In this document: piece after piece, positions 43,084 to 62,134 of the stretch
Layout of the letters: every line of letters starts with the position of its first letter
Position numbering within the stretch: position 1 is the stretch's first letter
Assembly: GCF_014635285.1 (NCBI RefSeq)
Contig: NZ_BMCR01000005.1
Coordinates: 186,001-250,000 of the forward strand
From: Stappia taiwanensis
GTDB lineage: Bacteria; Pseudomonadota; Alphaproteobacteria; Rhizobiales; Stappiaceae
DNA: 64,000 nucleotides
Reading direction: 5' to 3'
The notes under the pieces: generated by a model
What the model was told of the DNA's origin: nothing
The model's database searches: none
The model's input: the letters and a program-made list of their open reading frames with translations, nothing else
Position numbers and translations under genes: made by a program

Positions 43084-43096
43084 GGGTAGGCTCCGC

Positions 43097-44308: not shown

Positions 44309-44375
44309 CCCACTGCCCTCTTCTGATAAACTGCATCCTGATTCAAGCTCTTGCCTCCTGCAAAGGATTGCCCTC

Positions 44376-45041
44376 TTGACCGGCGAAGCCGACGAGACCG
44401 AAGCGCCGGCGACGCCGCAGCGCCGCAAACGCAGCCCCACCCGCCGCCACAAGGACGCGCCGCTCAACGAGCAGGACTGGATCGACGCCGCCACGACAAT
44501 CCTCGTTCGCGAGAACGTGCGCGGCATCAAGATCGACACCCTGTGCAAGATGCTCGGCGTGACGAAAGGCAGCTTCTACTGGCACTTCGCCACGCGGAAC
44601 GAATTGCTGATCGCACTCCTGTCGAACTGGCGCCGGCGCATGACGCTCAATGTCATCCGCTCCATCACCCGCTCGGGCGAGAAGGCGCTGGAGCGGCTGC
44701 GCAACCTGATGGCTCTGCCCCGCCAGCCAAAATCGCCGGCTTTCGCCCAGATCGAATCGAGCATTCGCGACTGGGCCCGCCGGGTGGACATGCCGCGCGA
44801 GGTGGTGGAAGAGGTCGATGAAATCCGCCAGGACTATTTCGAACGGCTGTTCCGCGACCTCGGCTATGGACCGGAGGAGGCCCGCCGGCGCGGCTACGTC
44901 ACCTATTGCCTGATGATCGGCGACGCCACCTTGCACCGGACCCTCGACCGGGTGTCGCAGGAGGAGTTTCTGGAGACCGCGCTGGCGATGCTGGCCCCGC
45001 CCGCGCCCCCTCCGGCGGACGGGGACCGCCCGGAAAGCTAG
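44376..45041 (+). CDS. TetR-family transcriptional regulator
   Basis: A 221-residue regulator with an N-terminal arginine-rich extension, a helix-turn-helix (GIKIDTLCKMLGVTKGSFYWHF) and a helical ligand domain. The TTG start at 44376 is supported by AAAGGA eight bases upstream; the longer frame runs through the divergent promoter. It should control the divergent ferredoxin reductase and probably the aromatic operon that ends 13 bases away on the opposite strand. The inducer is unknown. Confidence 0.85.
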   Translation: MTGEADETEAPATPQRRKRSPTRRHKDAPLNEQDWIDAATTILVRENVRGIKIDTLCKMLGVTKGSFYWHFATRNELLIALLSNWRRRMTLNVIRSITRSGEKALERLRNLMALPRQPKSPAFAQIESSIRDWARRVDMPREVVEEVDEIRQDYFERLFRDLGYGPEEARRRGYVTYCLMIGDATLHRTLDRVSQEEFLETALAMLAPPAPPPADGDRPES

Positions 45042-45053
45042 CCCCGTCGCCCC

Positions 45054-46061
45054 TCACCTTTCCTTCACCAGATCGAGGGCGACGTCGGTGATCATGTCTT
45101 CCTGTCCGCCGACCATGCGGCGCTTGCCCAGTTCCACCAGAATGTCGCGGGTGTCGATGCCGAAGCGGTCCGACGCCTGTTCCGCGTGGCGCAGGAAGCT
45201 GGAGTAGACCCCGGCATAGCCGAGCGTCATGGTCTCCCGGTCGACCCGCACCGGCCGGTCCTGCAGCGGCCGCACCAGCTCTTCGGCCGCGTCCTGCAGC
45301 TTGAACAGGTCGCAGCCATGCTCCCAGCCCATCAGGTTGGCCACCGCGATGAAGGCTTCCAGCGGCGTGTTGCCGGCCCCGGCCCCCATGCCGGCGAGCG
45401 AGGCATCGACCCGGGTCGCGCCATGCTCCACCGCCACCACCGAGTTCGCCACCGCCAGCGACAGGTTCTCATGCATATGCGCGCCGCGTACCGTCTCCGG
45501 CTTCAGCACCGTGTCATAGGCCTCGAACCGGGCCGCCACATCGCGCATCACCATGCCGCCGCCCGAATCGGTCACATAGACACAGGCCGCGCCATAGCTT
45601 TCCATCTTGGCCGCTTCGCCGGCCAGCACCTCCGGCGGCGTCATATGCGACATCATCAGAAAGCCGCTGACATCCATCCCCATCTCGACGGCGGCGGCGA
45701 TATGCTGCGCCGACACATCCGCTTCGGTGGAATGGGTGGCGACGCGCACGGAGGTAACGCCCACGTCCCGGGCACGGCGCAGGTCCTCAATAGTGCCGAT
45801 GCCGGGGATCAGCAGCGTCGTCAGCCGGGCGCGTTTGCACACCTTCGCCGCTTCCGCGATCCAGGCCGCATCGGTGCATTTGCCGAAGCCATAGGTGAAG
45901 GTGGAGCCGGTCAGCCCGTCGCCATGGGCCACCTCGATGGCATCGACCCCCGCTTCTTCCAGCGCCTCGGCGATGGCGCGGACATGACCAAGATCATACT
46001 GGTGACGCAGGGCGTGCATGCCATCGCGCAAGGTGACGTCCTGAAGATAAAGCTTGGTCAT
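45054..46061 (-). CDS. mhpE: 4-hydroxy-2-oxovalerate aldolase
   Basis: A 335-residue class II aldolase that cleaves 4-hydroxy-2-oxovalerate to pyruvate and acetaldehyde. The start [14 protein letters not shown] has the catalytic arginine and metal-binding aspartate, and [11 protein letters not shown] supplies the metal histidines. It is the last gene of the long aromatic operon, one base after the acetaldehyde dehydrogenase gene; the two enzymes form a channeling complex in this family. Confidence 0.95.
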
Positions 46062-46062
46062 G

Positions 46063-47004
46063 TCAGGCGACCTCCACCCAGTTGCGCTTCACCGCCAGGC
46101 GCTCGGCGGTGCGCAGCGCGGCGGAGGTCATGATGTCGAGATTGCCCGCGTAGGCCGGCAGGTAATGGGCCGCGCCCTCCACCTCCAGGAAGATCGAGAC
46201 CTTGAGCCCGGTGAAGCTCCGGTCCATCTCCGGGATGGTGAGCGGGGCGTTGTCGCCGATCCGCTCGAACTGCACCTCCTGCTTCAGCCGGTAGCCCGGC
46301 ACATAGGACTGCACCTCGGCCACCATTGCCGCAACCGAGGCGCGGATATCCGCCTCGTCGGCGTCGTCGCACAGGCAGAACACCGTGTCGCGCATGATCA
46401 GCGGCGGTTCGGCCGGATTGAGGATGATGATCGCCTTGCCGCGGGTGGCGCCGCCCACCGCCTCGATCGCATGGGCGGTGGTCTCGGTGAACTCGTCGAT
46501 GTTGGCGCGGGTGCCGGGCCCGGCGGATTTCGACGAGATGGAGGCGACGATCTCGCCGTAATGCACCTTCGCCACCCGGTTGACCGCCGCCACCATCGGG
46601 ATGGTCGCCTGGCCGCCGCAGGTCACCATGTTGACATTCGGCTCGGCCAGATTGGCATCGAGATTGACCGAGGGCACGGTGAAGGGGCCAAGGGCCGCCG
46701 GCGTCAGGTCGATCACCTGCTTGCCATCGGCGATCAGCGCCTCGGAATGGCGCTTGTGGGCGCCGGCAGAGGTGGCATCGAAGACGATGCGAATGGCGTC
46801 ATATTCCGGCAGCGCGCGCAGGCCGTCGAGCCCTTTGTGGGTGGTGGCGACGCCAAGGCGGGTCGCCCGGGCCAGCCCGTCGCTGGCCGGGTCGATGCCG
46901 ACCATGGCGCCCATCTCCAGCACCTTCGACAGGCGCATGATCTTGATCATCAGGTCGGTGCCGATGTTGCCCGAGCCGATGATCGCGGCCTTGATCCTGT
47001 TCAT
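46063..47004 (-). CDS. mhpF: Acylating acetaldehyde dehydrogenase
   Basis: A 313-residue enzyme that converts acetaldehyde, NAD and CoA to acetyl-CoA, taking the aldehyde from the adjacent aldolase. The nucleotide-binding GSGNIG near the start and the catalytic C129 ([11 protein letters not shown]) are visible. Its start overlaps the hydratase stop by four bases. Confidence 0.95.
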
Positions 47005-47777
47005 TCTGCTTCTCCGAATGTGACGGCGGTCTCGCCAAAGCCTTCGATCTCGGCAACGAACCGGGCGCCGGGGGTGGCGGCGACCATCGGCCCGAGCGCG
47101 CCGGACAGCACCACGTCGCCTTCGCCGAGCGGCCGGCCGGCCCGGGCCATCACCCGGGCGAGCCATAGAAGCGCGTTGAGCGGCGAGCCGAGGCAGGCGC
47201 GGCCGCTGCCTTCGCTGACCACCTGATCGCCGCAGCGCATTTGCATCCGGCAATCGAGCAGGTCGGCGCCGTCGAGCCGCCGGGCCGAGGGGCCGAGGGT
47301 GAAGAAGGCGGAAGAAGCGTTGTCGGCGACCGTATCGACGAAGCGGATGTCCCAGTTGGCGATGCGCGAGCCGACGATCTCAAGGCTCGGCACCACGTAC
47401 TCCACCGCGCGGATCACCTCGGCCATGGTGCAGTCGGGCGCGGTGAGCGGCCGGCCGAGGATGAAGGCCAGCTCCGCCTCCGCCTTCATCTGCGCGCCGG
47501 CGACGAAGGGGATCTCGCCGTCGTGGGGCACGTCCATGTCGGCAAACAGCATGCCGTAATCGGGCTGATCGACGCCGAGTTGGCGCTGCACCGCCGGATT
47601 GGTCAGGCCGATCTTGCGGCCGACCAGGCGCCCGCCGGCGGCCAGCCGCGCGGCGGTGTTGATTTCCTGCACGGCATAGGCGTCTTCCGCCGTGGCAAGC
47701 TCATCGCGCACCGGCAGGATCGGCGCGCCGGTGGCGTCCGCCTCCCGCAGCGCACGGGCGATGTCATCAAGGGTCAT
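47001..47777 (-). CDS. mhpD: 2-keto-4-pentenoate hydratase
   Basis: A 258-residue hydratase of the meta-cleavage pathway that makes 4-hydroxy-2-oxovalerate from 2-hydroxypentadienoate. The [18 protein letters not shown] motif and the metal-binding [10 protein letters not shown] segment are intact. It overlaps its neighbours on both sides by four bases, so the lower pathway is translated as a unit. Confidence 0.93.
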
Positions 47778-48766
47778 GCTGTCAGTTCCCGTTCTGCGCG
47801 CCGCATGGCAACGCCCGCTTCACCCGGCTGCACCGCCGCATAGTCGGCGGCGAGCCCTTCGACGATGTCGGCCAGCGGCTCGGTCCTGGCGATGCCGCCA
47901 ACGCCCTGGCCCGCACTCCACACGTGTTTCCAGGCCTTGGCGCCGGAGTGCATGTCTCCGGAAAAGTCGATCTTCGCATCCGCACGCATGGCGTCAGGGG
48001 AGATGCCTGCCGCCTCGACGCTGGCGCGCATCCAGTTGCCCAGCGCACCGGTGATCGCCCGCGAGGCGATCAGATCCTCCATCGCGCTGTCGATCACCAT
48101 TTGCCGGTAGGCATCGGAAATCAGGGTTTCGCGCGCGGCGAGAAAGCGCGTGCCGACATAGGCGAAATCCGCGCCCAGAAGCTCGACCGCCCGCACGGCC
48201 CGGCCGGTCCCGATCCCGCCACCAACGGCGATCGGCCCATCGAAGAAACGCCGGACCTCCTCGATAAAGGGAAGCATTGCATATTCGCCGGTATGTCCGC
48301 CGGCTCCGGAGCACACCAGAACGAGGCCGTCGGCCCCCTTGTCCACGGCCTTGCGGGCGTAGGTGGGGCTGTTCACATCCGCGAACACAAGACCGCCATA
48401 GCCATGCACGGTGTCGGTGACCCGATGCGGTCCGCCAAGGGCGGTGATCACCAGTTCCGGCCGATAGGCGGCGACCAGAGCAAGCTCTTCCTCGAAACGG
48501 CCATAGCTTGAATGGGTGATCATGTTGAAGGCCCAGGGCGCGTCCTGCGGTCCGACCCGTGCGTGGATCGTCTCGAAGATAGCTTTCAGGTCGTCCACCG
48601 TGCGGGCGTTCGGGCCGGGCAAGGCGCCCATCACCCCGGCCTTGCAGGCGGCAATGACCATCTCCGGCCCCGACACCAGAAACATCGGCGCGACGATCAC
48701 CGGCAGGCGCAACCGTGCTTTCAGGGCCGCGACGCGCGCCCGCGCATCGCTCGTTTCCTTTTTCAT
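47774..48766 (-). CDS. Nitronate monooxygenase-like FMN protein
   Basis: A 330-residue TIM-barrel flavoprotein of the nitronate monooxygenase/2-nitropropane dioxygenase family. The VIVAPMFLVSGPEMV start and the phosphate-binding GGGIGTGRAV loop are typical; the VCSGAGGHTGE loop fits the class with the conserved histidine. Its role in an aromatic operon is unexplained: nitro-compound detoxification or an enoyl-type reduction are both possible. Four-base overlaps on each side tie it firmly to the operon. Confidence 0.85.
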   Translation of the reverse strand: MKKETSDARARVAALKARLRLPVIVAPMFLVSGPEMVIAACKAGVMGALPGPNARTVDDLKAIFETIHARVGPQDAPWAFNMITHSSYGRFEEELALVAAYRPELVITALGGPHRVTDTVHGYGGLVFADVNSPTYARKAVDKGADGLVLVCSGAGGHTGEYAMLPFIEEVRRFFDGPIAVGGGIGTGRAVRAVELLGADFAYVGTRFLAARETLISDAYRQMVIDSAMEDLIASRAITGALGNWMRASVEAAGISPDAMRADAKIDFSGDMHSGAKAWKHVWSAGQGVGGIARTEPLADIVEGLAADYAAVQPGEAGVAMRRAERELTA

Positions 48767-49611
48767 GAGGATGCCCCCCGCTTGCGCCGGCCTCCGCCGC
48801 GCACCTCCAGCCCGCCGTCGGAGCGGATGATTTCCGCCGTGACGAAGCCGCTTTCGGCTCTGCTGGCCAATGTCACGTAAAGTCCGGCGTGATCTTCCGG
48901 TTCGGATAGGAACCCGAGCGGCACCGTCTTCGCCACCATCGCGTCGAAGCCGTCGAGCCCGGCAAGCTGGCGTTCGTCGCCCGGCAGCCCGCCAAGGTTG
49001 GTGCGGGTGCCACCGGGGGCCACGGCGTTGACCCGGATGTCCGGCGCCAGCTCGAAGGCAAGCTGGCGCACGACCCCGACAAGTCCGTGCTTGGAGCCGA
49101 CATAGAGCGTCCCGCCGCCGCCGGAAAAGAAGGACGAGGACGACAGGGTGAAGACGATCGAGCCGCGCGTCTCGCGCAGGGCGTCCAGCCCTGCGCGGAC
49201 GGCCAGCAGATAGCCGAGCACATTGACATCGAACAACTGCCGATACCGCTGTGCCAGATCCTCGCCGGCAATGTCCTCGAACCGGTCGCCGAAGTCGTAG
49301 ACACCGGCATTGGGCACCAGCGTGTCGAGCTTGCCATAGGTGGTAACCACCGTCTCGACCGCTTGCCGGTTCGCCTCCCAGTCGCGCACATCGCCCAGCA
49401 CCGGGCAGACCGACGCGCCATGAGCGGCGCGCAAGTTGTCCACGTCGGTCTCCGAGCGCACCAGGACGCCGACGCGCGCGCCTTCGGCAATAAACCGCTC
49501 GACAACGGCCCGACCGATGCCCTTGCCGCCGCCGGTGACAAGGGCGACCTGTCCCGCCAGTCGGCCATTGGCCGCCTCCCGCGGCGGCGTTTCCCGCAAG
49601 GTCTCGCTCAT
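48763..49611 (-). CDS. Cis-dihydrodiol dehydrogenase, SDR family (BphB/HcaB-like)
   Basis: A 282-residue short-chain dehydrogenase. The NAD motif TGGGKGIG, NAGVYD, the catalytic serine (TLSSSS) and YVGSK are present. With a Rieske dioxygenase directly upstream, the likely reaction is oxidation of an arene cis-dihydrodiol to a catechol. The ATG at 49611 has GGAGGG in front; the open frame beyond it overlaps the beta subunit gene. Confidence 0.9.
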   Translation of the reverse strand: MSETLRETPPREAANGRLAGQVALVTGGGKGIGRAVVERFIAEGARVGVLVRSETDVDNLRAAHGASVCPVLGDVRDWEANRQAVETVVTTYGKLDTLVPNAGVYDFGDRFEDIAGEDLAQRYRQLFDVNVLGYLLAVRAGLDALRETRGSIVFTLSSSSFFSGGGGTLYVGSKHGLVGVVRQLAFELAPDIRVNAVAPGGTRTNLGGLPGDERQLAGLDGFDAMVAKTVPLGFLSEPEDHAGLYVTLASRAESGFVTAEIIRSDGGLEVRGGGRRKRGASS

Positions 49612-49625
49612 GGTCCCTCCTCCCC

Positions 49626-50183
49626 TCACAGGAACGTGTTGAGGTTCTTCGACAGAAGCACGTTCTGCACGATCAGGATGCGTCGGCGCGCCAGGCGAAA
49701 CCCCTCGCCGTGGCGGCGCAGCACGTCTTCCCGGCGACCGTGGATCACGTCCTGGTCCGTCTCGTTGCGGTTGCGCACATTGGTGAAGACCGAGCACACG
49801 GCCAGCAGCGATGGGTCGCCGGTCTCATAAACCTCGATGTTGGAGATCAGGTGCAGGTGCCGCGTGGCGGGGTTGTCGGCCCACGCGGAGGGCTCGACGA
49901 AGCGCGCGACCCGGACCTTGAGTTCGGACAAGGTGTCGTCGAAATAGGCGCTGTCGCCGTGGCGATAGGGGCCGCGCGCATCCGAGCGGTTGCGCGTTTC
50001 CATATCGGGCATCCAATAGTGGATGTCCTCGTCCACGAAATGATCGAGCCACTCCTGATAGGCCTCGCGGTCGAGGGTTCGGGCCTCGGCATTGAGGAAC
50101 CGGGTCACCGCCCGTTCCGTCTCCGCGTCGGCTGGCCGATCATAGGCGGCGAAGGGCCGTGAGATGTCGAGAATATCCGTCAT
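49626..50183 (-). CDS. Ring-hydroxylating dioxygenase beta subunit
   Basis: A 185-residue structural subunit of an alpha3beta3 aromatic dioxygenase. Family features include EARTLDREAYQEWLDHF, the DIHYWMPD segment and the C-terminal NVLLSKNLNTFL, typical of BphE/HcaF. The ATG at 50183 lies just after the alpha-subunit stop with GGAG in front; a GTG at 50192 overlapping that stop is an alternative. Confidence 0.92.
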   Translation of the reverse strand: MTDILDISRPFAAYDRPADAETERAVTRFLNAEARTLDREAYQEWLDHFVDEDIHYWMPDMETRNRSDARGPYRHGDSAYFDDTLSELKVRVARFVEPSAWADNPATRHLHLISNIEVYETGDPSLLAVCSVFTNVRNRNETDQDVIHGRREDVLRRHGEGFRLARRRILIVQNVLLSKNLNTFL

Positions 50184-50188
50184 CGCGC

Positions 50189-51592
50189 TCACTCCGCCGC
50201 AGCCTTGGGACGTGCTGGCGCCGCCGTGGCGCCGTTTTGCAAATCCGCCCAGTTGTCATGCTCCATGAATTCCGCCCAGCGGGTGTAGAACAGCCGTTGA
50301 TTGGCGTCGTTCATCGAGCCCTTGTGCACGATGCCCGGCAGGTCGCGTTCCAGATCCTCGGAGCCCAGGCCCAGTGCGTAGTGCAGCGGCTGCTGGCGGG
50401 TGACGAAGCCCTGATTGACGCGGGTCGAATATTCCCAGTTCTCGCCGTCATCCATCTCGAAGACGCCGCCGGGCGAGAAGGTCATCATCACGCCCTTGCG
50501 GTAGAGATCCTTGATGCGTTCCGGAGCGTTCTTGTTGACGATGGTCCAGGACACCAGTTCAATCTTGCCCGGCCCGCGCGGATGCCAGACGCGGAAGGTG
50601 TTCTGTCCCGGCAGGAACGACATGTTGGGGAAGACCGTGGCCGAGGAAACTGCGCCGATGGCTCGTGCGCGCACCTCGCCCAGCCGCGCCTTGGCGCGCT
50701 CCGACAGGTCGAACATATAGTCGACCAGTTCCGGATAGCCGAGCGTGCGGGTATTGCCGACCTTGTCGAGGTTGGATTCAATGCCATGCCCATAGACCGA
50801 CGCCTGAAAGGCCAGTTCGTCGTACCGCTTGCCCAGGTCGACACCGCCACCGAGGATCGCCTGAGCCCCCGACTGATGCGTCCAGAAGGCATGGAGAATG
50901 TCGCCAACGAAATTTTCCGCCGGGAATTTCCAGTTGCAGTCGATTTCGGAACGGATTGCTCCGCCGATGAATTCGGTGCCGCCTTCCTCGTTGTCGAGCA
51001 TGATGTCGAGATAGAAGGTGAAGTCGCCGAGAAACTCTTCAAGGCTTGGCGCTTCGGGGTCGAAAGTGCCGAAGATCAGCCCCTTGTAGCTGGCGACCTG
51101 GGCCACGGGCGTCAGGCCGATCTGCGCCTTCTCGAAGCTTTCGTCCTTTTCGTAAACCTTGCCGTCGGTGCCCCGCAAGCCGCCGTCGAGGCCGAAGGAC
51201 CAGCCGTGATAATTGCAGATGAAGCCGCGCGCCTTGCTGCCGGCATCGACCATGCAAACCCGGTTGCCGCGATGTGGGCAGGAGTTGAGCAGTGCCTTCA
51301 CCGAGCCGTCGCGCTGACGCACGACGATCACGTCATCCTCGCCCATCGAGGTGCGGATGAAATCGCCGGGCCCTGGAATCTGGCTTTCATGCGCCAGAAA
51401 CAGCCACGCCCGGGCGAAGATCTGGCGCAATTCCGCCTGATAGACCGCCTCGTCGGAAAACACCCGGCGATCGACCTGGGCGGTGTCGCGATCCACCAGC
51501 CGCGCGAAATCGGGGTAGCTGCCAGCCGTCGGATAGACCGGCGTCATATCCGGGCGCCCCGCGCCCTGGCACGAACCTCTGCACATGGTCAT
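50189..51592 (-). CDS. Ring-hydroxylating dioxygenase alpha subunit (Rieske and mononuclear iron)
   Basis: A 467-residue catalytic subunit that inserts both atoms of O2 into an aromatic ring. The Rieske cluster ligands are C105, H107, C126 and H129 (CPHRGNR and CNYHGW). The mononuclear iron is held by H234 and H239 (GDILHAFWTHQS), with bridging D231, and a later aspartate in MDDGENW near residue 381. The ring substrate is not readable from sequence. ATGA overlap with the ferredoxin supports 51592; 51586 and 51547 are alternative starts, the last giving a more typical N-terminus. Confidence 0.93.
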   Translation of the reverse strand: MTMCRGSCQGAGRPDMTPVYPTAGSYPDFARLVDRDTAQVDRRVFSDEAVYQAELRQIFARAWLFLAHESQIPGPGDFIRTSMGEDDVIVVRQRDGSVKALLNSCPHRGNRVCMVDAGSKARGFICNYHGWSFGLDGGLRGTDGKVYEKDESFEKAQIGLTPVAQVASYKGLIFGTFDPEAPSLEEFLGDFTFYLDIMLDNEEGGTEFIGGAIRSEIDCNWKFPAENFVGDILHAFWTHQSGAQAILGGGVDLGKRYDELAFQASVYGHGIESNLDKVGNTRTLGYPELVDYMFDLSERAKARLGEVRARAIGAVSSATVFPNMSFLPGQNTFRVWHPRGPGKIELVSWTIVNKNAPERIKDLYRKGVMMTFSPGGVFEMDDGENWEYSTRVNQGFVTRQQPLHYALGLGSEDLERDLPGIVHKGSMNDANQRLFYTRWAEFMEHDNWADLQNGATAAPARPKAAAE

Positions 51593-51906
51593 GCCTCCTC
51601 CTTCAGGCGGGCGAAGACCTTGCCGTCACGGTCCTCGCAGGTGAAAAACGTCAGATTGGGACAACCGGCCGGGCGGTTGTGAACCTCCCCCGAACCCAGT
51701 TCGAATTCGGCGAAATGAACGCCGCACACGACGCGGCCATCCTCGACCCAGCCTTCCGACAGGCTTTCCTCCGCATGCGGACAGGTGTCGGGAAAGACGA
51801 AGATCTGCCCCTCGTGCCGGGTCAACGCCACGGCGGGAAACCCTTCGACATCGCGGCGCAGGATTTCGCCTTCCACCACGTCGGTGCTGTTGCAAAGCTC
51901 GATCAT
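51589..51906 (-). CDS. Rieske ferredoxin of the ring-hydroxylating dioxygenase
   Basis: A 105-residue [2Fe-2S] protein with the Rieske ligands in CPHAEESLSEG and CGVHFAEFEL. It passes electrons from the reductase encoded at 43097-44308 to the alpha subunit. It overlaps both neighbours by four bases. Confidence 0.95.
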   Translation of the reverse strand: MIELCNSTDVVEGEILRRDVEGFPAVALTRHEGQIFVFPDTCPHAEESLSEGWVEDGRVVCGVHFAEFELGSGEVHNRPAGCPNLTFFTCEDRDGKVFARLKEEA

Positions 51907-52733
51907 GCCGCCACCTTCAGTTCCGCAAAGCCCATGCCGGTGACCCAGCCTTCGATCGGTTCATAGGCAACCACCTCGCCGCCGGCCGCGCGCGTCGCCG
52001 CCATCGCGCAGGCATAGGTGCGGATTTCCATGGCGCCATTGCCGCCCTCTTGCAGGATTTCCTCGTCGGTGAGTGCCAGCATCGCCTCCCGGTCGCCGCG
52101 CGCGACGATGTCGAGCACCTTGCGATCGAACGTCGGGTTGACCTCGCCCATGCGCTCGTTGCCGACATGATGGGAAATGCCGCCCGAGCCGATCACCACG
52201 ACACGCTGGTCAGTGCCGTCGCTTTCCACGGCGGCCGCGATGTGCTCGCCGATCTGCCAGGCCCGCGCCATCGGCAGATAAGGATCGACGCCGCAGGCCA
52301 GCATCACCGCCACCGTGGTCATGCCCTCGTTGGGCTTGATCATCAGATGATGCGGAATGCCGATGGAGTGATCGACCTGCATGGCGCGCCCGACCGTCCA
52401 GTCGAACCCGGTCTGCCGACCGACCGCCGCGATATGCGCGCCAAGCGCGGCGTTGGAGGCAATCGGCGCGCGCTTGATGCCGGGAAGCTGATCGACCGGC
52501 CCCTCGATCTCTCCGGTGGAGATGACATAGGGCGGCAGCGCTTCAGTACCAAAGAGTATGTAGTGGTCACAGCCAATGATGATGGCCGTGTCGGCGCGCA
52601 GCTCCCGAATGCGCTCGGCCATGCGCGCATAGGCGGCATAGACGGTGGCGCTTTGTTCGGCAGAGGCGCCCTTGGGGTTGAAATACATCACCGGATTGTG
52701 CGGAACGACGAAACCGCCGACGATCGTGGCCAT
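51903..52733 (-). CDS. Class III (LigB-type) extradiol ring-cleavage dioxygenase, large subunit
   Basis: A 276-residue catalytic subunit that opens a catechol next to the hydroxyls using Fe(II). Metal ligands of the LigB family are H12, H57 and E236, and a catalytic histidine lies at 188/189 in GGISHHVGN. It pairs with the small LigA-like subunit encoded three bases upstream, the same arrangement as LigAB and the carbazole-pathway enzyme CarBaBb. The natural catechol is unknown. Confidence 0.9.
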   Translation of the reverse strand: MATIVGGFVVPHNPVMYFNPKGASAEQSATVYAAYARMAERIRELRADTAIIIGCDHYILFGTEALPPYVISTGEIEGPVDQLPGIKRAPIASNAALGAHIAAVGRQTGFDWTVGRAMQVDHSIGIPHHLMIKPNEGMTTVAVMLACGVDPYLPMARAWQIGEHIAAAVESDGTDQRVVVIGSGGISHHVGNERMGEVNPTFDRKVLDIVARGDREAMLALTDEEILQEGGNGAMEIRTYACAMAATRAAGGEVVAYEPIEGWVTGMGFAELKVAA

Positions 52734-52736
52734 GGG

Positions 52737-52994
52737 TCAGGCCTCCTCTCGTTTCATGATTTTCATGTAATCGGAATTGGATTTGCCCGCCTGGAGCCAG
52801 AAGCCCCAGGTCAGCATCGTGTTCACGCCCCGGTCGGCGAGGTCGCGCACCCGATAATCCCGGACGAGCGTCTTTTCCTCGACGTCGAGCTGATAACGTC
52901 CGAGGAACTTGTCTGGATCGGCTGCAAAGAGTTTCTTGTTCGCGCCCGAGGTGGACAGGTCGTAGAGCACCTTTTCGAGACTGTTGCGGCTCAT
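52737..52994 (-). CDS. LigA-like small subunit of the extradiol dioxygenase
   Basis: An 85-residue helical protein of the LigA type (DPDKFLGRYQLDVEE, then RDYRVRDLADRGVNTMLTWG), which caps the active site of the LigB-type subunit. The ATG at 52994 overlaps the hydrolase stop by four bases; the open frame upstream of it is inside the hydrolase gene and non-coding. Confidence 0.85.
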   Translation of the reverse strand: MSRNSLEKVLYDLSTSGANKKLFAADPDKFLGRYQLDVEEKTLVRDYRVRDLADRGVNTMLTWGFWLQAGKSNSDYMKIMKREEA

Positions 52995-53818
52995 GCGTCT
53001 TCTCCCAGAAAGTCGGTGACCAGCTTCAGGAAGGCGGCTTCCCGTTCGATCTGCACCCAGTGGCCGCACTTGCCAAAGCTGTGGAGCTGCGAATTCTCCA
53101 GCCACTGATGCATGTCCAGCGCCCGCTCGTAGGGAACCAGCCGGTCCTCGCGGCCATGCAGGATCAGGGCGGGATGTTTCACCGTGCGCAGCATCTTTTC
53201 GGGAATGCCCCGCACGATCGGGGCCTCGCCTTCCGGCGGAGGCATCAGCTTGCGAAAAGCTTCCAGCGCCCCGTCCCGCGTTGCAGCCTCGAAACGCGCC
53301 TGGATCAGATCCTCGGTGACGAAGGAGGGATCATGGGGAAAGAAGCTCATCGCGCGGCGCAGGCTGTCCATCGTGCCGTCGAATTCGCCTTGCGCGCGCA
53401 GGCCGTCGGTCAGCGGGAAACGACCGCAGGGCGTTCCGAGCAGCACCAGCCGGTCGATCCGTTCCGGGTGATTGATCGCGGTCATCAGGCCGAGCGCGCC
53501 GCCGAAGGAATTGCCGACGACCGACACCTTTTCCAGCCCCAGCGCATCGAGCACACCGACGAAATGCTCTACCCACAACATGATGTTGTACTGGGTATCG
53601 GGTTTCATCTCGGTCGCGCCGAAACCGGCAATGTCCGGCGCCACGATGTCGAACTGCGCGGACAGCGGCGCGATCACCTTGCGCCAGTTTGCCCAGGCCG
53701 ACACGCCAGCGCCCGAGCCGTGCAGCAGGGCGACAGGTGCGCCCTCGCCCGCGCGGTGAACGTTGGTGTCATGACCGGCCGCCGTCACCGAAAGCCGGGT
53801 GGCGTTGTAATCCAGCAT
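52991..53818 (-). CDS. Meta-cleavage product hydrolase, alpha/beta fold
   Basis: A protein of about 275 residues that would split the ring-cleavage product (C-C hydrolase, BphD/MhpC/CarC type). The nucleophile serine is in VGNSFGGALG, the aspartate in GREDRLVPYE and the histidine in GKCGHWVQIE; the oxyanion loop HGSGAGVSAWANW is of the C-C hydrolase kind. GAGG lies nine bases before the ATG at 53818; an ATG at 53827 is also possible. It follows the TRAP genes and precedes LigA and LigB. Confidence 0.9.
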   Translation of the reverse strand: MLDYNATRLSVTAAGHDTNVHRAGEGAPVALLHGSGAGVSAWANWRKVIAPLSAQFDIVAPDIAGFGATEMKPDTQYNIMLWVEHFVGVLDALGLEKVSVVGNSFGGALGLMTAINHPERIDRLVLLGTPCGRFPLTDGLRAQGEFDGTMDSLRRAMSFFPHDPSFVTEDLIQARFEAATRDGALEAFRKLMPPPEGEAPIVRGIPEKMLRTVKHPALILHGREDRLVPYERALDMHQWLENSQLHSFGKCGHWVQIEREAAFLKLVTDFLGEDA

Positions 53819-53829
53819 GGCAGACATCC

Positions 53830-55119
53830 TCACTTGAGATAGGCGGGCAGCGCGAGTGACAGCCAGGGTACGAAGACCACCAGCAGCACGCGCGCCACAT
53901 CCGCGACAACGAAGGGAACGACGCCCCGGAAGATCCGCGACAGCGGGACCTCCTGCAGCACGGAGCGCAAGACGAAGACATTGAGCCCGACGGGCGGGGT
54001 GATCAGGCTGATTTCAACCACCACCACGACCAGCACGCCGAACCAGACGAGGTCGTATCCAAGGCTGACGACCAGCGGATAGAACACCGGTACGGTCAGC
54101 AGCATCATGGAGATGCTTTCCAGAATGCAGCCCAGAACGAGATAGATCAGGATGATCAGGAAGATGACCGCCAGCGGCGCAACGCCGAGGCTCTCGATGG
54201 CGGCGGTCAGGTCCTGGGGCAGGCGTGCCACATTGACCAGATTGGCAAACAGGAAGCTGCCGATCAGAATGGCCATCAACGCCACTGTCGTCGCGATCCC
54301 GTCGGCCAGCGCCGTGCGCACCATCTCCAGCGACGCGCGGCCACGCAGAACGGCGATGAGAAGCGCCCCGGCCGCGCCGATTCCGGCACTTTCCGTCGGC
54401 GAGAACAGTCCGCCATAGATGCCGCCCATGACAAGGCCGAACAGCAGAAGCACCGCCCAGATGCCGCGCAGCGCCGCGATGCGTTGCTGCCAGTTGGAGC
54501 GCGCGCCCGCCGGTCCGGCCTCCGGGTTGCGCGCCACGACAAACAGCACCGCCGCTGCATAGAGCACGATCCCGAGGATCCCCGGCAGAATGCCGGCCAT
54601 GAACAACGCGCCAATGTCGCTTTCGGTGATGATGCCGAAGAAGACCAGCGCGATGGACGGCGGAATGAGAATGCCGAGCGTGCCGCCGGCGGCGATCGAA
54701 CCGGTCGCCAGGTCGTCGCGATAGCCGAACCGTTTCATTTGCGGATAGGCAATGCGCGACATGGTGGCGGCAGTGGCGAATGACGAGCCGGACACGGCGC
54801 CGAAGCCGCCGCAGGCCGCCACCGTCGACAGGGCCAGCCCGCCCCGCCAATGGCCGACGAAGGCATAGCACGCCTGAAACAGCTCCTCCGCGATGCCCGA
54901 GCGCGCAATGAACGCGCCCATGACGATGAACAGCGGAATGACGGCGAATTCGTAGGTCAGCACCGTTTCGGTGGCGATGATCCCGACCTGGGCGAAGGCC
55001 GCCGGCCAACCCTGGAAGGCGGCAAGCCCGCACAGGCCCACCAGCCCCGTCGCCACGGCAATGGGCACCCGCAGCAGCAGCAACACGAGCAGGGTGACAA
55101 CGCTGATCGTCAGGATCAT
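53830..55119 (-). CDS. dctM: TRAP transporter large permease (DctM)
   Basis: A 429-residue membrane protein with 12 or so helices, the ion-coupled channel part of a TRAP uptake system. Signature segments are GGFGAVSGSSFATAATM and LGILIPPSIALVFFG, and the C-terminal TPPVGLNVFVL. Its ATG overlaps the dctQ stop by ATGA. It should import the organic acid degraded by this operon. Confidence 0.93.
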   Translation of the reverse strand: MILTISVVTLLVLLLLRVPIAVATGLVGLCGLAAFQGWPAAFAQVGIIATETVLTYEFAVIPLFIVMGAFIARSGIAEELFQACYAFVGHWRGGLALSTVAACGGFGAVSGSSFATAATMSRIAYPQMKRFGYRDDLATGSIAAGGTLGILIPPSIALVFFGIITESDIGALFMAGILPGILGIVLYAAAVLFVVARNPEAGPAGARSNWQQRIAALRGIWAVLLLFGLVMGGIYGGLFSPTESAGIGAAGALLIAVLRGRASLEMVRTALADGIATTVALMAILIGSFLFANLVNVARLPQDLTAAIESLGVAPLAVIFLIILIYLVLGCILESISMMLLTVPVFYPLVVSLGYDLVWFGVLVVVVVEISLITPPVGLNVFVLRSVLQEVPLSRIFRGVVPFVVADVARVLLVVFVPWLSLALPAYLK

Positions 55120-55622
55120 GATGCGCGCTCCCCATCGCCCGGGCGCAGACCCGGCACCACGGCCGCCAGCGTGGCGACAACGGCAAGGCTCGCCAGTCCG
55201 CCGAAGACCGCCAGCGGCAACCACTTTTCCAGCGGCAGGAACAGGAAGGTCTCGCGCCAGCGCATCAAGGCGCCCATCTGGCGGAAGATGTAGATGGCGA
55301 GCAGCGTGAAGAAGCTCAGTTCCAGCAGCCACACCGCCGCTTCGCGCGCCCGGTCGAACGCCGGCAGGCGGCTCAGCCAGGGTTGCAGCAGGTCGATGCG
55401 GATGTGGTCGCGCCGCCAGGCCGCGCGCACCAGCCCGCCATAGACCGCAACACCAAGCAGAACACCGACCAACTCATAGGCAAAGCCCAGCGGAGCGCCA
55501 AAGGCAACGCGCCCGACCACATCCACCGCGGTGATCCCGACCAGACCGAACAGCGCCAGCCGCGTCAGCAGGAGAAGCGCTTCTTGCAGGACGCCATGCA
55601 AGCGCCGCAGAAGCCGGATCAT
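55116..55622 (-). CDS. dctQ: TRAP transporter small permease (DctQ)
   Basis: A 168-residue membrane protein with four helices and the DctQ pattern (LRRLHGVLQEALLLLTRLALF, later RRDHIRIDLL). It overlaps its neighbours by four bases on both sides. Confidence 0.9.
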   Translation of the reverse strand: MIRLLRRLHGVLQEALLLLTRLALFGLVGITAVDVVGRVAFGAPLGFAYELVGVLLGVAVYGGLVRAAWRRDHIRIDLLQPWLSRLPAFDRAREAAVWLLELSFFTLLAIYIFRQMGALMRWRETFLFLPLEKWLPLAVFGGLASLAVVATLAAVVPGLRPGDGERAS

Positions 55623-56680
55623 TCACCGGCCTCCGCGATCTGCTGCCGATAAAAGGCCAGGGCAGCCTCCGGATCGATGCCGGCATCGCGGGCGCGCGCC
55701 TTCCAGGCCTCCAACTCGTCGGAATAGGCGGCGCGCAACTCGTCCTGAAAGGCATCCGACGCCGTCTGATAGGCTGTTCCGAGGCGCTCCTGGAACGCGG
55801 CGCGCGCCTTGAGGTCGTTCTCATGCCACAGCCGGCCCATGATCTCGCTGAGCCGCTCACCCGACAACGCGCGGATCGCTTCGCGGTCCTGTTCGCTGAT
55901 CTGTTCCCACTTCGCCTTGTTGACGATGATGAAGGCGGAGTTGGAGAAGATGCCGCCGGGAATGCGCGTGACCGCGTGTACATCGTCGTCGACATGGAAA
56001 CCGGTGACCAGTTCGTCGGAAATCACCGTGCCGTCGATGATGCCACGCGACAGCATCTCGCGAAGTTCGCCAAGCGATCCGGAGACCGGAACCGCGCCGA
56101 TCTTGCCCAGAACCCGGCCAACGACCGGCGTGGGTACGCGCAGTTTCTTGCCCTTGAGGTCGGCGAGCCGTGTTACCTGCGCCTCGCGCATGGAAATGTT
56201 GCCGCCTGCCGTCACATGCATTCCGAGCGTCACGACGTCACTCTGCATGCCGGTCGGCTCGAAATGCGCCTTCCACAGCCGCCAGTAGGCGCGCGAGGAG
56301 AGCCCCGCATTCTCGGTGATAAACGGGAACTCGACCATCTCCGTCAGCGGAAAGACGCCCGGCGTGTAGCCATGCGGACCCCAGGCGATATCCGCCACGC
56401 CATCGACCACGGCCTGATAGTTGCGGTTCGGCGGCGCCAGCGGCTTGGCCGAGGGCTCCACCGTCACCCGCCCCTCCGTGACCCGGGCGATGTCCTCGAA
56501 CCAGGGATAGAGCCCTTCGGCCTGACTCCAATGCCCGCTCGGGAACCATTGATTGTAACGCAGCGTCACACTTTCGGCCGCAGCCTCCCCGGCGGAGAAC
56601 AGCCCCATTCCAAGAACCGCCACCGTGCCGGCGAGCAGCGTCGCGCGGCCCCGCATGCGCAGATCTGTCCAATCGACCAT
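55619..56680 (-). CDS. dctP: TRAP transporter substrate-binding protein (DctP)
   Basis: A 353-residue periplasmic solute receptor with a signal peptide (cleavage near AAA, about residue 35). After it, LRYNQWFPSGHW and the later RVPTPVVGRVLGKIGA show the DctP fold, with the arginine that binds ligand carboxylates in this region. The ligand should be an aromatic or aliphatic carboxylate linked to the operon. Confidence 0.92.
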   Translation of the reverse strand: MVDWTDLRMRGRATLLAGTVAVLGMGLFSAGEAAAESVTLRYNQWFPSGHWSQAEGLYPWFEDIARVTEGRVTVEPSAKPLAPPNRNYQAVVDGVADIAWGPHGYTPGVFPLTEMVEFPFITENAGLSSRAYWRLWKAHFEPTGMQSDVVTLGMHVTAGGNISMREAQVTRLADLKGKKLRVPTPVVGRVLGKIGAVPVSGSLGELREMLSRGIIDGTVISDELVTGFHVDDDVHAVTRIPGGIFSNSAFIIVNKAKWEQISEQDREAIRALSGERLSEIMGRLWHENDLKARAAFQERLGTAYQTASDAFQDELRAAYSDELEAWKARARDAGIDPEAALAFYRQQIAEAGE

Positions 56681-56708
56681 CCCGTTTCCTCCCTCGATTG
56701 TGTTTTCT

Positions 56709-58235
56709 TCAGACGCTGTCTTCGGGCGCGCCCTGGCAGGCGCGCTGGCTCAATGCGATCCGGTCGAGCTTGCCGGCCGGCGTCAGCGGCAGTTCCTCCA
56801 GGCACTCGATGCGGGTCGGCATCCGATAGGCGAGCAGATAGTCGCGGCAGTGGGCGATCAGCCCATCCACGTCGAGAGGCGCGTCGCCGCGCGGCGCGAC
56901 GAAGGCCACCACCGCCTCGCCGCTGCGCGCATCCGGCGCGCCGACCACACAGGCCCCGGAAATGTCGGGATGGGTCAGGATCGCCTCTTCCACTTCGCGG
57001 GGGAAGACGTTGAACCCCTTGTGAATAATGACGTTCTTTTTCCTGTCCGTGATCGTGAGGAACCCCTCCCCGTCGACCACACCAACATCGCCGGTGTGCA
57101 GCCAACCGTCGCGCAGCACCAGCGCGGTCTCTTCCGGATTGTTGCAATACCCGCCCATCAGATGCGGCCCGCGCACCCGGATCTCACCGGCTTCGCCAAC
57201 CGGCATCTCCCGCTTGCCGGTTTCCAGATCGACGATGCTCACCTCGACATCGGGCGCAGGTTTTCCCGCCGCGCCAGCGCGGTGCCCCGCCTCAAGCGTG
57301 TTGACGGTGATCGGCGCCATCTCGGTCATACCGTAGCCCTCGAAGATCGTCAGGCCGGTCAGTTCCTTCCAGGTCTCGTGGACATGCAGCGGAAACGGCG
57401 CCCCGCCGCCCGGACACAACCGGAGCGTCGACAGGTTGCGCGACGCCAGGTCCGGATCCGACATCAGGGCCTGGTAGATCGCCGGCGGACCGCCGCCGAG
57501 CACCGTCACCCCTTCCCGCTCGATGGCATCCAGCGCGTCGCCCGGCCGGAACCGCTCAAGCATGATCGACGAGCCGGCACATTGCAGCGCCACGCAGACC
57601 CCCATGAGGTAGCCATAGATGTGACTGAAGGGCGCGATCGGCAGGAAGACCTCGCCGTCGGCAACCGGCCAGCCCCACTGCATCCGCTCGCCGGCCGCCA
57701 GTACCTTGCGATGGGTATAGCGCACCCGCTTCGGCACACCGGTGGTACCACCGGAGTAGAAATAGGTCGCCGTGTCGTCGCCTGAACCGCACGCGCTGGC
57801 CGCGCCATTATCCGCAGCAAGCCAGATACGCAGGCGATCCGCATCGACGGTCACCGCATCCGCGCAGAACGACAGCGGCGCATCGGTGAAAACCGCAGCG
57901 GGCGACAGCTCACCAATCAGAGTCTCACCGGTCTTCGGTGGCAACCCCGCATTCAGCAGCGCCGGAACTCCACCTGAATACAAGACTCCAAGGTATGTTA
58001 CGAGGAAATTGACACCATTGGCCATCGACAAGGCGATATCCCGCCGCTCGACCACATCACCATACAGGGCACGAAAGCCACGTACGGCCGCCAGCGCCTC
58101 GGCATAGGTCAGGCTGATAGTCGGGTCTTTGGCAAAGAGTCTCTCGGGATTTTCCCGTTCCGCCTTTACCAGGACATCAATGAGATTGCCGATATGCGCC
58201 TCCCGGCGCCAGGGCAGAAAACTCGCCACGGTCAT
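56709..58235 (-). CDS. AMP-dependent acid-CoA ligase
   Basis: A 508-residue member of the ANL superfamily that activates a carboxylic acid to its CoA ester. Core motifs are SGGTTGVPK (phosphate loop), EGYGMTEM, GWLHTGDVG and the C-terminal catalytic lysine in TPAGKLDR. It is the first gene of the long operon with GGAGGG before the ATG at 58235. Whether it activates the imported acid or the acid released by the hydrolase is open. Confidence 0.93.
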   Translation of the reverse strand: MTVASFLPWRREAHIGNLIDVLVKAERENPERLFAKDPTISLTYAEALAAVRGFRALYGDVVERRDIALSMANGVNFLVTYLGVLYSGGVPALLNAGLPPKTGETLIGELSPAAVFTDAPLSFCADAVTVDADRLRIWLAADNGAASACGSGDDTATYFYSGGTTGVPKRVRYTHRKVLAAGERMQWGWPVADGEVFLPIAPFSHIYGYLMGVCVALQCAGSSIMLERFRPGDALDAIEREGVTVLGGGPPAIYQALMSDPDLASRNLSTLRLCPGGGAPFPLHVHETWKELTGLTIFEGYGMTEMAPITVNTLEAGHRAGAAGKPAPDVEVSIVDLETGKREMPVGEAGEIRVRGPHLMGGYCNNPEETALVLRDGWLHTGDVGVVDGEGFLTITDRKKNVIIHKGFNVFPREVEEAILTHPDISGACVVGAPDARSGEAVVAFVAPRGDAPLDVDGLIAHCRDYLLAYRMPTRIECLEELPLTPAGKLDRIALSQRACQGAPEDSV

Positions 58236-58287
58236 CCGCGTCCCTCCTCTTTCTGCGCCCAGAAACCACCTCGCCTCCTTCGTGTCA

Positions 58288-58301
58288 ATACCTATGAGTA
58301 T
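58288..58301. promoter_or_regulatory. Imperfect palindrome in the promoter region of the aromatic operon
   Basis: ATAC-CTATGA-GTAT lies 53 bases before the ligase start, in the 235-base gap that must hold the operon promoter. It is a possible operator, for the TetR protein or another regulator; no second copy is seen near the TetR gene. Confidence 0.3.
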
Positions 58302-58377
58302 GTTTTCGGATCGACAAAGTGCAGGCCACATGCCTGACAGGTTGGCGCCTTGCGGCGATGAGAGCGCAGGTCAAACA

Positions 58378-58424
58378 CAAACGGCGGACGCCGGGCCATG
58401 GTCAGGCCGGGCATCCGCCGTTTG
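58378..58424 (-). terminator. Terminator after the HpaB-hydrolase operon
   Basis: A perfect 11-bp stem (58378-58388 with 58414-58424), extendable inward past one mismatch, lies 47 bases after the hydrolase stop. On the minus strand it is followed by TTGTGTTTG. It separates this operon from the promoter of the long aromatic operon. Confidence 0.8.
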
Positions 58425-58470
58425 ATATCAAGCCTTTCCCACCGAAGACCGGTGGACTGGCGGGATGTGT

Positions 58471-59328
58471 TCAGGCGGCCTCCGCCGGTTGCCGCATGCG
58501 CGCCAGCGCATCGAGGAAGAACGGGCGGAAGCCTTGCGGGTGTTCGCTCATCGGGAAATGGCCCAGCTCGTCCATCACCGTCAGTGTCGCTCCGGGAATC
58601 GCCCGGGCGGTCCGTTCCGCGTCTTCCGGCGTGCAGGTGAGGTCATAAGCCCCAACGAGGATATGCACCGGCGTGCGGGTACAGTCGATCTGGCCGAGCC
58701 GGGCGATCAGGCTGTCGTCGCGGGTATAAAAACTCAGATCGCCGCGAAAGACGCCCGGGCCCGACTGCATGAACATCCACAGCGTGTTCCAGCGCTCTTC
58801 GTCTGGCGCGTGGGGGGAAATGTTGGCGGAGACAAGCGCCGCCCCCATCTCGCCGCCATGGGCATCCGGCCGGTGGAACCAGTCGATGTCGTACCAGGCG
58901 GGCTGGAAATCCGAGGCCTCGATGGCGATGAAGCCGGAAAACCGCTCCGGGTGAAGAGCCGCCAGTTGCAACGCAATCCGCCCGCCCATCGAACAGCCGG
59001 CCAGCACCGGACGCTCCAGACCGAGCCCATCAATCACGGCCAGGATCGTCTCGATGTAGGCGTCGGTGGTCAGCAGATATTCCTGCGTCTCGAAACCTTC
59101 CGGCGGCAGCGATTTGCCATGCCAGGGCATGTCGAAGGCGATCATCCGGTGAGAGGCGGTCACCTCCGCATCGTTCATCAGATGCCGCCACTGGCGGGTG
59201 TCGGCGCCGGCGGTGTGCAGGCACAGCACCGGGCGCCCCGCGCCCGCTTCCTCGAAATAGATGCGGCGCGGCGCGCCCTCGACGGTGACCGTGAGATAGC
59301 GCCCGGTGATCGGTTCGATGGCAGTCAT
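58471..59328 (-). CDS. Alpha/beta hydrolase
   Basis: A 285-residue hydrolase with the oxyanion motif HTAGAD, nucleophile serine in GCSMGGRIA, an acidic residue in GAYDLTC and histidine in LGHFPMSEHP. It overlaps the SCP2-like gene by four bases and belongs to the HpaB operon. The substrate is not identifiable; a ring-fission product or an ester are possible. Confidence 0.88.
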   Translation of the reverse strand: MTAIEPITGRYLTVTVEGAPRRIYFEEAGAGRPVLCLHTAGADTRQWRHLMNDAEVTASHRMIAFDMPWHGKSLPPEGFETQEYLLTTDAYIETILAVIDGLGLERPVLAGCSMGGRIALQLAALHPERFSGFIAIEASDFQPAWYDIDWFHRPDAHGGEMGAALVSANISPHAPDEERWNTLWMFMQSGPGVFRGDLSFYTRDDSLIARLGQIDCTRTPVHILVGAYDLTCTPEDAERTARAIPGATLTVMDELGHFPMSEHPQGFRPFFLDALARMRQPAEAA

Positions 59329-59699: not shown

Positions 59700-59770
59700 G
59701 GCGTCTCCTTGTTGGTGATCCGGCCCAAGGGGGACGCGGGCGGCAGCATGCTCCGCCGCCCGCGCGAAGC

Positions 59771-61321: not shown

Positions 61322-61419
61322 GGTCTTTTCCTCCCAATCCGCTCGGCACGATCACCGGTCCCGCCAGCCTCCCGCCGGCAAGATGCAAGGAGGCTGCCGC
61401 GAATTCCCGCCGAACGAAA

Positions 61420-61435
61420 GGTATCGACCGATACC
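61420..61435. promoter_or_regulatory. Operator palindrome in the HpaB/FAD-synthetase divergent promoter
   Basis: GGTATCG-AC-CGATACC is a perfect inverted repeat with 7-base arms, placed between the two divergent starts (61321 and 61510). The same core GTATCG-N2-CGATAC occurs at 62674 before the intradiol dioxygenase, which suggests a shared regulator. Confidence 0.7.
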
Positions 61436-61509
61436 GTGATCCCTCCGCAGTTTTGCCGAATTCTGACGGTCACGGAGAACCCATCCGGACTGCTCGGGGA
61501 GGAGCGCAC

Positions 61510-62109: not shown

Positions 62110-62134
62110 TTTCGCCGTCACAGGAGGAGACCCC

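Follow-up and report, generated by a model that had tools for sequence, protein, structure and literature searches.

Gene content and extent of the operon

We analysed a stretch of 64,000 nucleotides from Stappia taiwanensis (henceforth referred to as the window; positions 186001-250000 of contig C5, NZ_BMCR01000005.1, in a 4.42-Mb genome of 20 contigs). The window contains a fifteen-gene operon, entirely on the minus strand at 45054-58235, in which the parts of an aromatic meta-cleavage route are joined to a tripartite ATP-independent periplasmic (TRAP) importer, a coenzyme A (CoA) ligase and a flavoprotein of the nitronate monooxygenase (NMO)/FabK superfamily. The coordinates of the fifteen genes were confirmed, and family searches gave the named functions; the genes are listed below from the ligase start (58235) to the aldolase stop (45054), followed by two genes beyond the aldolase and a site upstream of the ligase (pLDDT, predicted local distance difference test).

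56709-58235, minus strand: AMP-forming acyl-CoA ligase, 508 amino acids (PF00501 205 bits, PF13193 64 bits)
55619-56680, minus strand: TRAP solute-binding protein DctP (PF03480 84 bits; model pLDDT 84.1)
55116-55622, minus strand: TRAP small permease DctQ (PF04290 52.6 bits)
53830-55119, minus strand: TRAP large permease DctM (TIGR00786 304 bits, cut-off 268)
52991-53827, minus strand: CumD-like C-C hydrolase for a meta-cleavage product (best solved relative CumD, 245.8 bits)
52737-52994, minus strand: LigA-type small extradiol subunit, 85 amino acids (PF07746 29.4 bits, cut-off 25.3)
51903-52733, minus strand: LigB-type catalytic extradiol subunit (PF02900 105.1 bits, cut-off 26.3)
51589-51906, minus strand: Rieske ferredoxin (PF00355 54.8 bits; 38% identity to HcaC)
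50189-51592, minus strand: Rieske dioxygenase alpha subunit (PF00355, PF00848)
49626-50183, minus strand: dioxygenase beta subunit (PF00866 137.7 bits)
48763-49611, minus strand: cis-dihydrodiol dehydrogenase of the short-chain dehydrogenase/reductase (SDR) type (NF004849 332.6 bits, just above the cut-off of 330)
47774-48766, minus strand: flavin mononucleotide (FMN) oxidoreductase, NMO/FabK superfamily (PF03060 80.9 bits, cut-off 28)
47001-47777, minus strand: 2-hydroxypentadienoate hydratase, MhpD-type (NF008461 321 bits, below the cut-off of 350; 53% identity to MhpD)
46063-47004, minus strand: acylating acetaldehyde dehydrogenase, MhpF-type (TIGR03215 473 bits, cut-off 282)
45054-46061, minus strand: 4-hydroxy-2-oxovalerate aldolase, MhpE-type (TIGR03217 544.6 bits, cut-off 286)
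44376-45041, plus strand: TetR-family regulator (PF00440 29.1 bits; start uncertain, TTG at 44376 a candidate)
43097-44308, minus strand: HcaD-like ferredoxin reductase (HcaD model 283.5 bits, cut-off 450; PF07992, PF14759)
58284-58301, minus strand: operator-like palindrome RTACN6GTATTGAC, 48 bases ahead of the ligase start, with a -35-like TTGAC at its end

With the start of the beta subunit set at the ATG at 50183, eight of the 14 gene junctions are 4-base overlaps and the remaining gaps measure 1, 2, 3, 5, 14 and 28 bases. A scan of 43000-62700 found 15 terminator-like sites compared with 11.7 ± 4.4 in shuffles, and those on the minus strand within the operon all fall in coding sequence; internal terminators were rejected because the scan was at chance level. 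The initial annotation had described fifteen minus-strand genes, mostly joined by 4-base overlaps and lacking an internal terminator, and this description was borne out, as was its claim of a complete meta-cleavage route, all steps through hydratase, dehydrogenase and aldolase being present. The unit as first drawn did, however, stop short at the aldolase. The TetR gene ends 12 bases from the aldolase stop, and since the TetR and ferredoxin reductase genes both follow the aldolase in 8/8 named related loci extending to this point (L020-L025, L027 and L030), the best explanation is a catabolic unit of seventeen genes. With the reductase, the four components of the dioxygenase system are present (alpha, beta, Rieske ferredoxin and flavin adenine dinucleotide-dependent reductase); a dioxygenase with a separate ferredoxin requires such a reductase. 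The GC content is 0.65-0.68 over the operon and 0.64-0.68 in its surroundings.

Conservation of the gene order and of an operator-like site

The nearest named relative is Stappia indica SN13-18 (L018), in which twelve whole operon proteins are 94-99% identical to those of the window and the DNA is 94.0% identical over 14.3 kb. A LigB scan of the named genome collection returned 12 loci (ten alphaproteobacterial, one from Paraburkholderia and one from Alcanivorax), to which plasmid records added loci from Tistrella and Burkholderia cenocepacia. When gene neighbourhoods were compared, as the initial annotation had proposed, seven other alphaproteobacterial loci (L020, L021, L022, L024, L025, L027 and L030) showed the fifteen genes complete and in unchanged order, together with TetR and reductase (the reductase precedes TetR in L022); L018 and L019 end inside the operon, and L026, from a Hyphomicrobiaceae metagenome-assembled genome (MAG), starts inside the hydrolase gene and is without the lower-pathway genes after the NMO-like gene. 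Within a same-class draw of 289 genomes (own genome included), LigB found a match at E up to 1e-30 in 14, and LigA, LigB and alpha occurred together in the stretch fetched in five of these 14 (G000, G014, G033, G162 and G260). In Burkholderia, Paraburkholderia and Alcanivorax the core of hydrolase, LigA, LigB, alpha, beta, SDR, NMO-like protein and hydratase is kept without these TRAP genes. Only in Alcanivorax was the ferredoxin matched; B. cenocepacia has one by annotation. The hydratase is followed by a ligase that is longer than that of the window and different from it (annotated as feruloyl-CoA synthase in B. cenocepacia).

An incomplete copy was seen on plasmid pTTS12 of Pseudomonas putida S12 (L032), where LigA, LigB and part of alpha are followed by mercury-resistance and transposon genes in a stretch that also holds styrene-degradation genes.

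Across nine loci, comparison of the ligase promoters brought out a palindrome, ATAC-N6-GTAT (in one case GTAC), that runs directly into TTGAC. The derived pattern RTACN6GTATTGAC has a single match in the window (0 in 100 shuffles) and a single match in the whole genome (reversed control 0). Among related alphaproteobacterial loci with the operon start fetched, the site precedes the operon in 11/11. In ten of them (L018-L025, L027 and L030), which are all those with a fetched ligase start, it stands ahead of the ligase; in L037 the hydrolase is the first gene and the site stands ahead of it instead. Because nine of these loci served to derive the pattern, their matches are partly by construction, which does not apply to the count per genome. 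In 15 genomes or records, which are not all independent (the W01 plasmid record has the same match as G260), the site occurs exactly once in 13, three times in Sinorhizobium saheli and not at all in G310, compared with 2 matches in total for the reversed control. The third S. saheli match (L131) has no operon gene adjoining it. Weaker copies precede the TetR or ferredoxin reductase gene in 8/9 regions of eight relatives (p 0.003-0.037, with a profile made from the promoter sites, 300 shuffles each, uncorrected over nine relatives plus the window, and L022 taken as two regions with the reductase side missing). A 16-mer word common to the ligase promoter and the TetR/reductase region was not found above shuffles. 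The simplest reading of the site is a putative TetR operator that overlaps the -35 box, to which TetR would bind.

Upstream, the minus strand of 58471-62653 carries genes for an HpaB-type hydroxylase and an alpha/beta hydrolase and a small open reading frame, and the plus strand a flavin reductase gene. Because the conserved operator-like site marks the operon start, the HpaB-type genes (58471-61321) are probably a separate unit; they were set aside as operon members on account of a 235-base gap with the site in between, and among the compared operon loci only L018 shows them in the stretch fetched. Further along, from position 62661 of the window to beyond its end (2661-15828 of L036), lie genes for a catechol 1,2-dioxygenase and a muconate cycloisomerase, followed past the window end by those for a LigB protein of the 4,5-DOPA type, a second TRAP set and a lower pathway for catechol meta-cleavage; this stretch is an aromatic catabolic island.

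Kinship of the enzymes and of the importer

The alpha subunit is 51.7% identical to that of Rhodococcus jostii RHA1 plasmid pRHL2, which we take to be EtbAa, 52% to a pNL1 enzyme, 40-42% to BphA proteins and 39% to HcaE. It reaches the cut-off of neither the HcaE equivalog (391.8 bits, cut-off 830) nor the benzoate-type model TIGR03229 (146.6 bits, cut-off 781). Placement in trees, also proposed at the outset, set alpha apart from HcaE and the BphA proteins, which form a separate group (91/99), and did not separate the operon alpha subunits, the Etb/pNL1 pair and the beta- and gammaproteobacterial alpha subunits from one another. LigB clusters, with support of 100/100, alongside the extradiol enzymes of the XWY-1 carbaryl plasmid, Novosphingobium pentaromativorans and G138; MhpB lies outside this cluster, as does CarBb, which groups with G025 (98/98). 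The tree tool gave a long-branch warning for both trees. LigB is 41% identical to the XWY-1 enzyme, 32% to CarBb and 23% to E. coli MhpB. Its residues H12, H57, H122, H188 and E236 are invariant in 18 aligned sequences, the window included, and H12, H57, H188 and E236 are presumably metal-site residues, by their roles in LigAB. LigA adjoins LigB in the related operon loci. The SDR, just above the NF004849 cut-off, scores 277.8 bits against the HcaB-type model NF042950 (cut-off 450) and is 47.5% identical to a pRHL2 enzyme named HcaB. The hydrolase, nearest to CumD, scores 115.1 bits with MhpC and at most 145.2 bits with any solved enzyme other than CumD among the matches listed. In many operon alpha subunits (51547-51592 in the window, and orthologues) a short tail containing Cys precedes the point at which dioxygenases usually start, and the second Cys is missing in some relatives.

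None of the closest known systems corresponds to the operon as a whole. The Hca/Mhp 3-phenylpropionate pathway of E. coli has the same order of reactions, HcaC-, HcaD- and HcaF-like parts, a possibly HcaB-like SDR and a similar lower pathway (dehydrogenase and aldolase each 68% identical, in addition to the hydratase), but is distant in alpha, extradiol enzyme and hydrolase (32%). The Stappia operon adds the TRAP genes, CoA ligase, FabK/NMO-like protein and TetR, and its LigB, unlike the single-subunit MhpB-type 3-carboxyethylcatechol dioxygenase on another branch, has a LigA partner. The alkylbenzene/biphenyl cluster of pRHL2, whose genes we take to bear the Etb names, is close in alpha and SDR but has a BphC-type extradiol enzyme, and no TRAP, ligase or NMO-like gene is annotated in the 19 kb read. 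Carbazole plasmid pCAR1 has a two-subunit LigAB-type enzyme (CarBaBb) followed by a C-C hydrolase (CarC), whereas its LigB is on a separate branch and its Rieske oxygenase is a different one. For the 1,2-dihydroxynaphthalene dioxygenase McbB/PhnC, the comparison is with the XWY-1 cluster, which shares the LigB clade but carries a 2-hydroxychromene-2-carboxylate isomerase and no annotated CumD-like C-C hydrolase; the small hypothetical protein before its LigB did not match the Stappia LigA at 1e-8. McbB of strain C5pp is given as a 1,2-dihydroxynaphthalene dioxygenase of the LigB type in passages of PMC5141477. The specific likeness to Hca/Mhp or to the carbazole route that the initial annotation had drawn was thus not sustained, and a plain Hca/Mhp, carbazole or naphthalene pathway was rejected on identities, cut-offs and trees. 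Likewise, the LigA plus LigB pair, singled out as unusual, has a precedent in pCAR1, where a small subunit is annotated beside the LigB-type gene, although its combination with TRAP, CoA ligase and FabK/NMO-like protein is unusual.

In a Foldseek comparison of the DctP model with solved folds, ranks 1-3 are 4p56, whose ligand we take to be mandelate, and rank 14 is 5im2. Ranks 4-13 and 15-21 are TarP_Sse, a marine solute-binding protein 'specific for aromatic acid ligands' and TarP_Csal, and the titles of the TarP_Sse entries include coumarate and cinnamate complexes. The comparison supports a place for DctP near aromatic-acid TRAP binding proteins, with such an acid as its predicted ligand, and agrees with the earlier claim that the operon carries its own importer for an aromatic acid. 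Rhodopseudomonas palustris offers counterparts in TarPQM, for the TarP-type fold of DctP, and in CouPSTU, for a CouP-type protein in S. saheli; passages of PMC3610893 tie that locus to coumarate metabolism.

The importer differs in some relatives. S. saheli (L023) has no DctPQM between ligase and hydrolase, and a second copy of the operator-like site precedes a Peripla_BP_6 binding protein followed by branched-chain-type ATP-binding cassette (ABC) permease and ATPase domains. Among solved structures, this binding protein matches 7ylt best (260.6 bits), which may come from an auxin-degradation operon and is a possible lead. CouP entries 4f8j and 4jb0 follow at 249.3 and 248.6 bits; according to passages of PMC3610893 these are CouP with coumarate (4F8J) and with ferulate (4JB0), and CouP binds coumarate, caffeate, ferulate and cinnamate at nanomolar level. 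In the Hyphomicrobiaceae MAG the site is followed by a protein 42% identical to the S. saheli ABC binding protein, a ligase and the contig end. A search for a relative of the window DctP at E 1e-10, weak for want of a positive control, found none in the S. saheli and MAG genomes. The occurrence of two unrelated importer types, both with aromatic-acid members, behind the same site is the best evidence that the substrate is an aromatic acid.

For the ligase, none of the best 25 of 106 NCBIfam families reached its cut-off, and the best solved relatives include feruloyl-CoA synthetase and 4-coumarate- and malonyl-CoA ligases. The alphaproteobacterial and the beta/gamma members carry different ligases at different positions, which points to a ligase step as part of what the operon does. 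The NMO-like protein has a GAGGHTG motif, invariant in 15 aligned sequences (window included), whose GGHxG we take to be the nitronate monooxygenase/FabK signature, and scores 86.8 bits against the FabK equivalog (cut-off 453, not reached). Its family is common (112/385 class genomes at E up to 1e-55). We compared the neighbours of NMO-like genes in 48 chosen loci, with three plasmid loci (all with a ligase) uncounted and L018 and L019 excluded; some flanks are shortened by contig ends and the loci share ancestry. With flanks of similar length, 8/13 loci at 48-54% identity have a CoA ligase no more than 7 kb away, as against 4/21 at 39-44% (p 0.025); within 5 kb the counts are 7/13 and 4/21 (p 0.060) and within 3 kb 5/13 and 2/21 (p 0.079). 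A first statistic (13/14 operon-type loci against 4/21, p 2e-5) was withdrawn as biased, because the 14 loci had mostly been picked via the operon and had longer flanks, and because the ligase is 5-8 kb off in 8/10 loci at 71-80% identity. In 4/4 operon loci at 51-55% identity the ligase is less than 1 kb from the NMO-like gene; in G310, which showed no LigAB in the 18 kb fetched, 13 bases separate the two genes, and TRAP genes and another Rieske gene are their neighbours. A carotenoid-oxygenase-type gene is in the stretch in 6/13 loci at 48-54% and 1/21 at 39-44%. The host has a second NMO-like gene (51%; G000:C4:419000-436000, L088), near two CoA ligases, a thiolase, a hotdog thioesterase and a carotenoid-oxygenase-type fragment. 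Action of the NMO-like protein on an acyl-CoA is favoured, without certainty.

The hydratase-dehydrogenase-aldolase DNA (45062-47777) is 97.6% identical over 2.7 kb to host contig C7 (6358-9073 of L035), where it forms the lower-pathway genes of an Mhp-type cluster, with an aldolase protein 99.4% identical. Near-identical DNA in the two clusters is a recent duplication or gene conversion between two pathways.

The proposed pathway and its alternatives

With moderate confidence, we favour a TetR-controlled meta-cleavage unit for an imported aromatic acid whose carboxylate is handled as a CoA ester by the ligase and the FabK/NMO-like flavoprotein. After import of the acid by the TRAP system, the four-component Rieske dioxygenase would add O2 to the ring and the SDR would yield a substituted catechol, which the LigA-LigB enzyme would open next to the two hydroxyls. 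The CumD-type hydrolase would then split the product into 2-hydroxypentadienoate and a side-chain acid, and hydratase, aldolase and dehydrogenase would carry the former to pyruvate and acetyl-CoA. The imported acid or the released side-chain acid would be the carboxylate handled as CoA ester, the flavoprotein probably reducing or oxidising a C=C next to the thioester. TetR would repress the unit and the substrate would relieve repression. Since the transporter favours a C6-C3 aryl acid and the kinship of oxygenase and hydrolase favours an alkyl side chain, we infer an aryl-alkanoic or aryl-alkenoic acid, which fits both, with the C6-C3 type as the favourite. That ligase and NMO-like gene are a two-gene module, in which the FMN enzyme reduces or desaturates an aryl-alkenoyl- or aryl-alkanoyl-CoA within a mixed CoA-ester and Rieske/LigAB route, is a more specific and doubtful proposal; acyl-CoA reduction or desaturation by the NMO-like family was not found in the literature searched. 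If it were true, a route that is part CoA ester and part Rieske/LigAB cleavage would be one seen in neither Hca/Mhp nor CoA-dependent pathways.

Several observations weigh against this account, the functions in which are predicted ones. Alpha and hydrolase are nearer to alkylbenzene enzymes than to Hca/Mhp, which by itself does not point to an acid. The link between NMO-like gene and ligase outside this operon is weak, and the NMO-like model (pLDDT 75.2) resembles FabK and nitroalkane oxidase to about the same degree, so that the fold was dropped as a decider of the reaction. In L024, which is a MAG, two stop codons interrupt the ligase frame. At E 1e-10, the Paraburkholderia and Alcanivorax genomes and the B. 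cenocepacia plasmid yielded no relative of the window DctP. The importer swap in S. saheli is not clean: another TRAP set lies upstream of the ligase on the opposite strand (DctP 317.5 bits, on a different DctP branch; DctM 30%), and the top solved match of the ABC protein is 7ylt, ahead of the CouP entries; the MAG contig ends after the ligase, leaving the region before the hydrolase out of view. The site is absent from three beta/gamma loci (L028, L029 and L031) and from before TetR/reductase in the window (p 0.50), and a consensus sigma-70 promoter scan listed no promoter at 58284-58301.

An unlikely alternative, but the one with most to commend it, is that the true substrate is a neutral hydrocarbon (an alkylbenzene, styrene or a small polycyclic aromatic) and that the importer serves a side product. 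The identities of alpha to the Etb-type and pNL1 enzymes, the clade shared by LigB and the carbaryl-plasmid enzyme and the closeness of the hydrolase to CumD would all suit such a pathway, as would two host names that suggest aromatic hydrocarbons (naphthalenivorans and pentaromativorans) and the P. putida S12 fragment among styrene genes. However, an aromatic-acid-type TRAP importer stands beside the ligase behind the operator in all seven complete alphaproteobacterial loci, S. saheli has another importer behind a copy of that site, and family searches of the operon genes returned neither a 2-hydroxychromene-2-carboxylate isomerase nor a naphthalene-route hydratase-aldolase. Improbable as well, and slightly more so, is a divergent form of the Hca/Mhp route that would degrade plain 3-phenylpropionate or cinnamate and liberate succinate or fumarate: HcaE, HcaF, HcaC, HcaB and HcaD models are among the best matches, TarP_Sse has been solved with cinnamate and passages of PMC3610893 report that TarP binds it, but the HcaE score is far below its cut-off, MhpB and MhpC are distant, succinate and fumarate require neither a ligase nor a FabK-like enzyme, and the host keeps its separate Mhp-type cluster on C7, with an MhpB-like LigB and MhpC- and MhpE-like genes.

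We regard as very improbable an alkylbenzoate route like that of p-cumate, in which the acid group is on the ring and an isobutyrate-type acid is released for activation by the ligase. CumD, the nearest relative of the hydrolase, acts on 2-hydroxy-6-oxo-7-methylocta-2,4-dienoate, which also arises from p-cumate, and the ligase would activate the branched acid; family searches of the seventeen genes, however, found no decarboxylase for a ring-cleavage product, and alpha is not of the benzoate type. We retain the CoA-linked aromatic-acid unit as the favoured account. The initial proposal of an imported aromatic acid outside any textbook pathway was right in outline, its named analogues being loose. 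No match of the whole operon to one characterised pathway turned up in the searches made, as had been claimed, and no description of it was found in the literature listings, abstracts and passages searched; PMC11705938 and PMC12442348 concern other clusters, as far as their passages go.

Overall, each enzyme step resembles known enzymes, and the whole set with importer and CoA-linked enzymes matches no pathway in the searches made. The operon occurs in several named alphaproteobacterial genera, and its operator-like site is present just once in nearly every genome searched; very likely, then, it encodes a genuine pathway under selection, for a compound met by marine and soil bacteria. That one relative has another importer following a copy of the site gives an independent handle on the substrate, and the operon offers a ready-made candidate TetR sensor for an aromatic acid. 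Naming the substrate would fill a gap in aromatic carbon cycling and would help to assign a flavoprotein clade now annotated as 'nitronate monooxygenase'.

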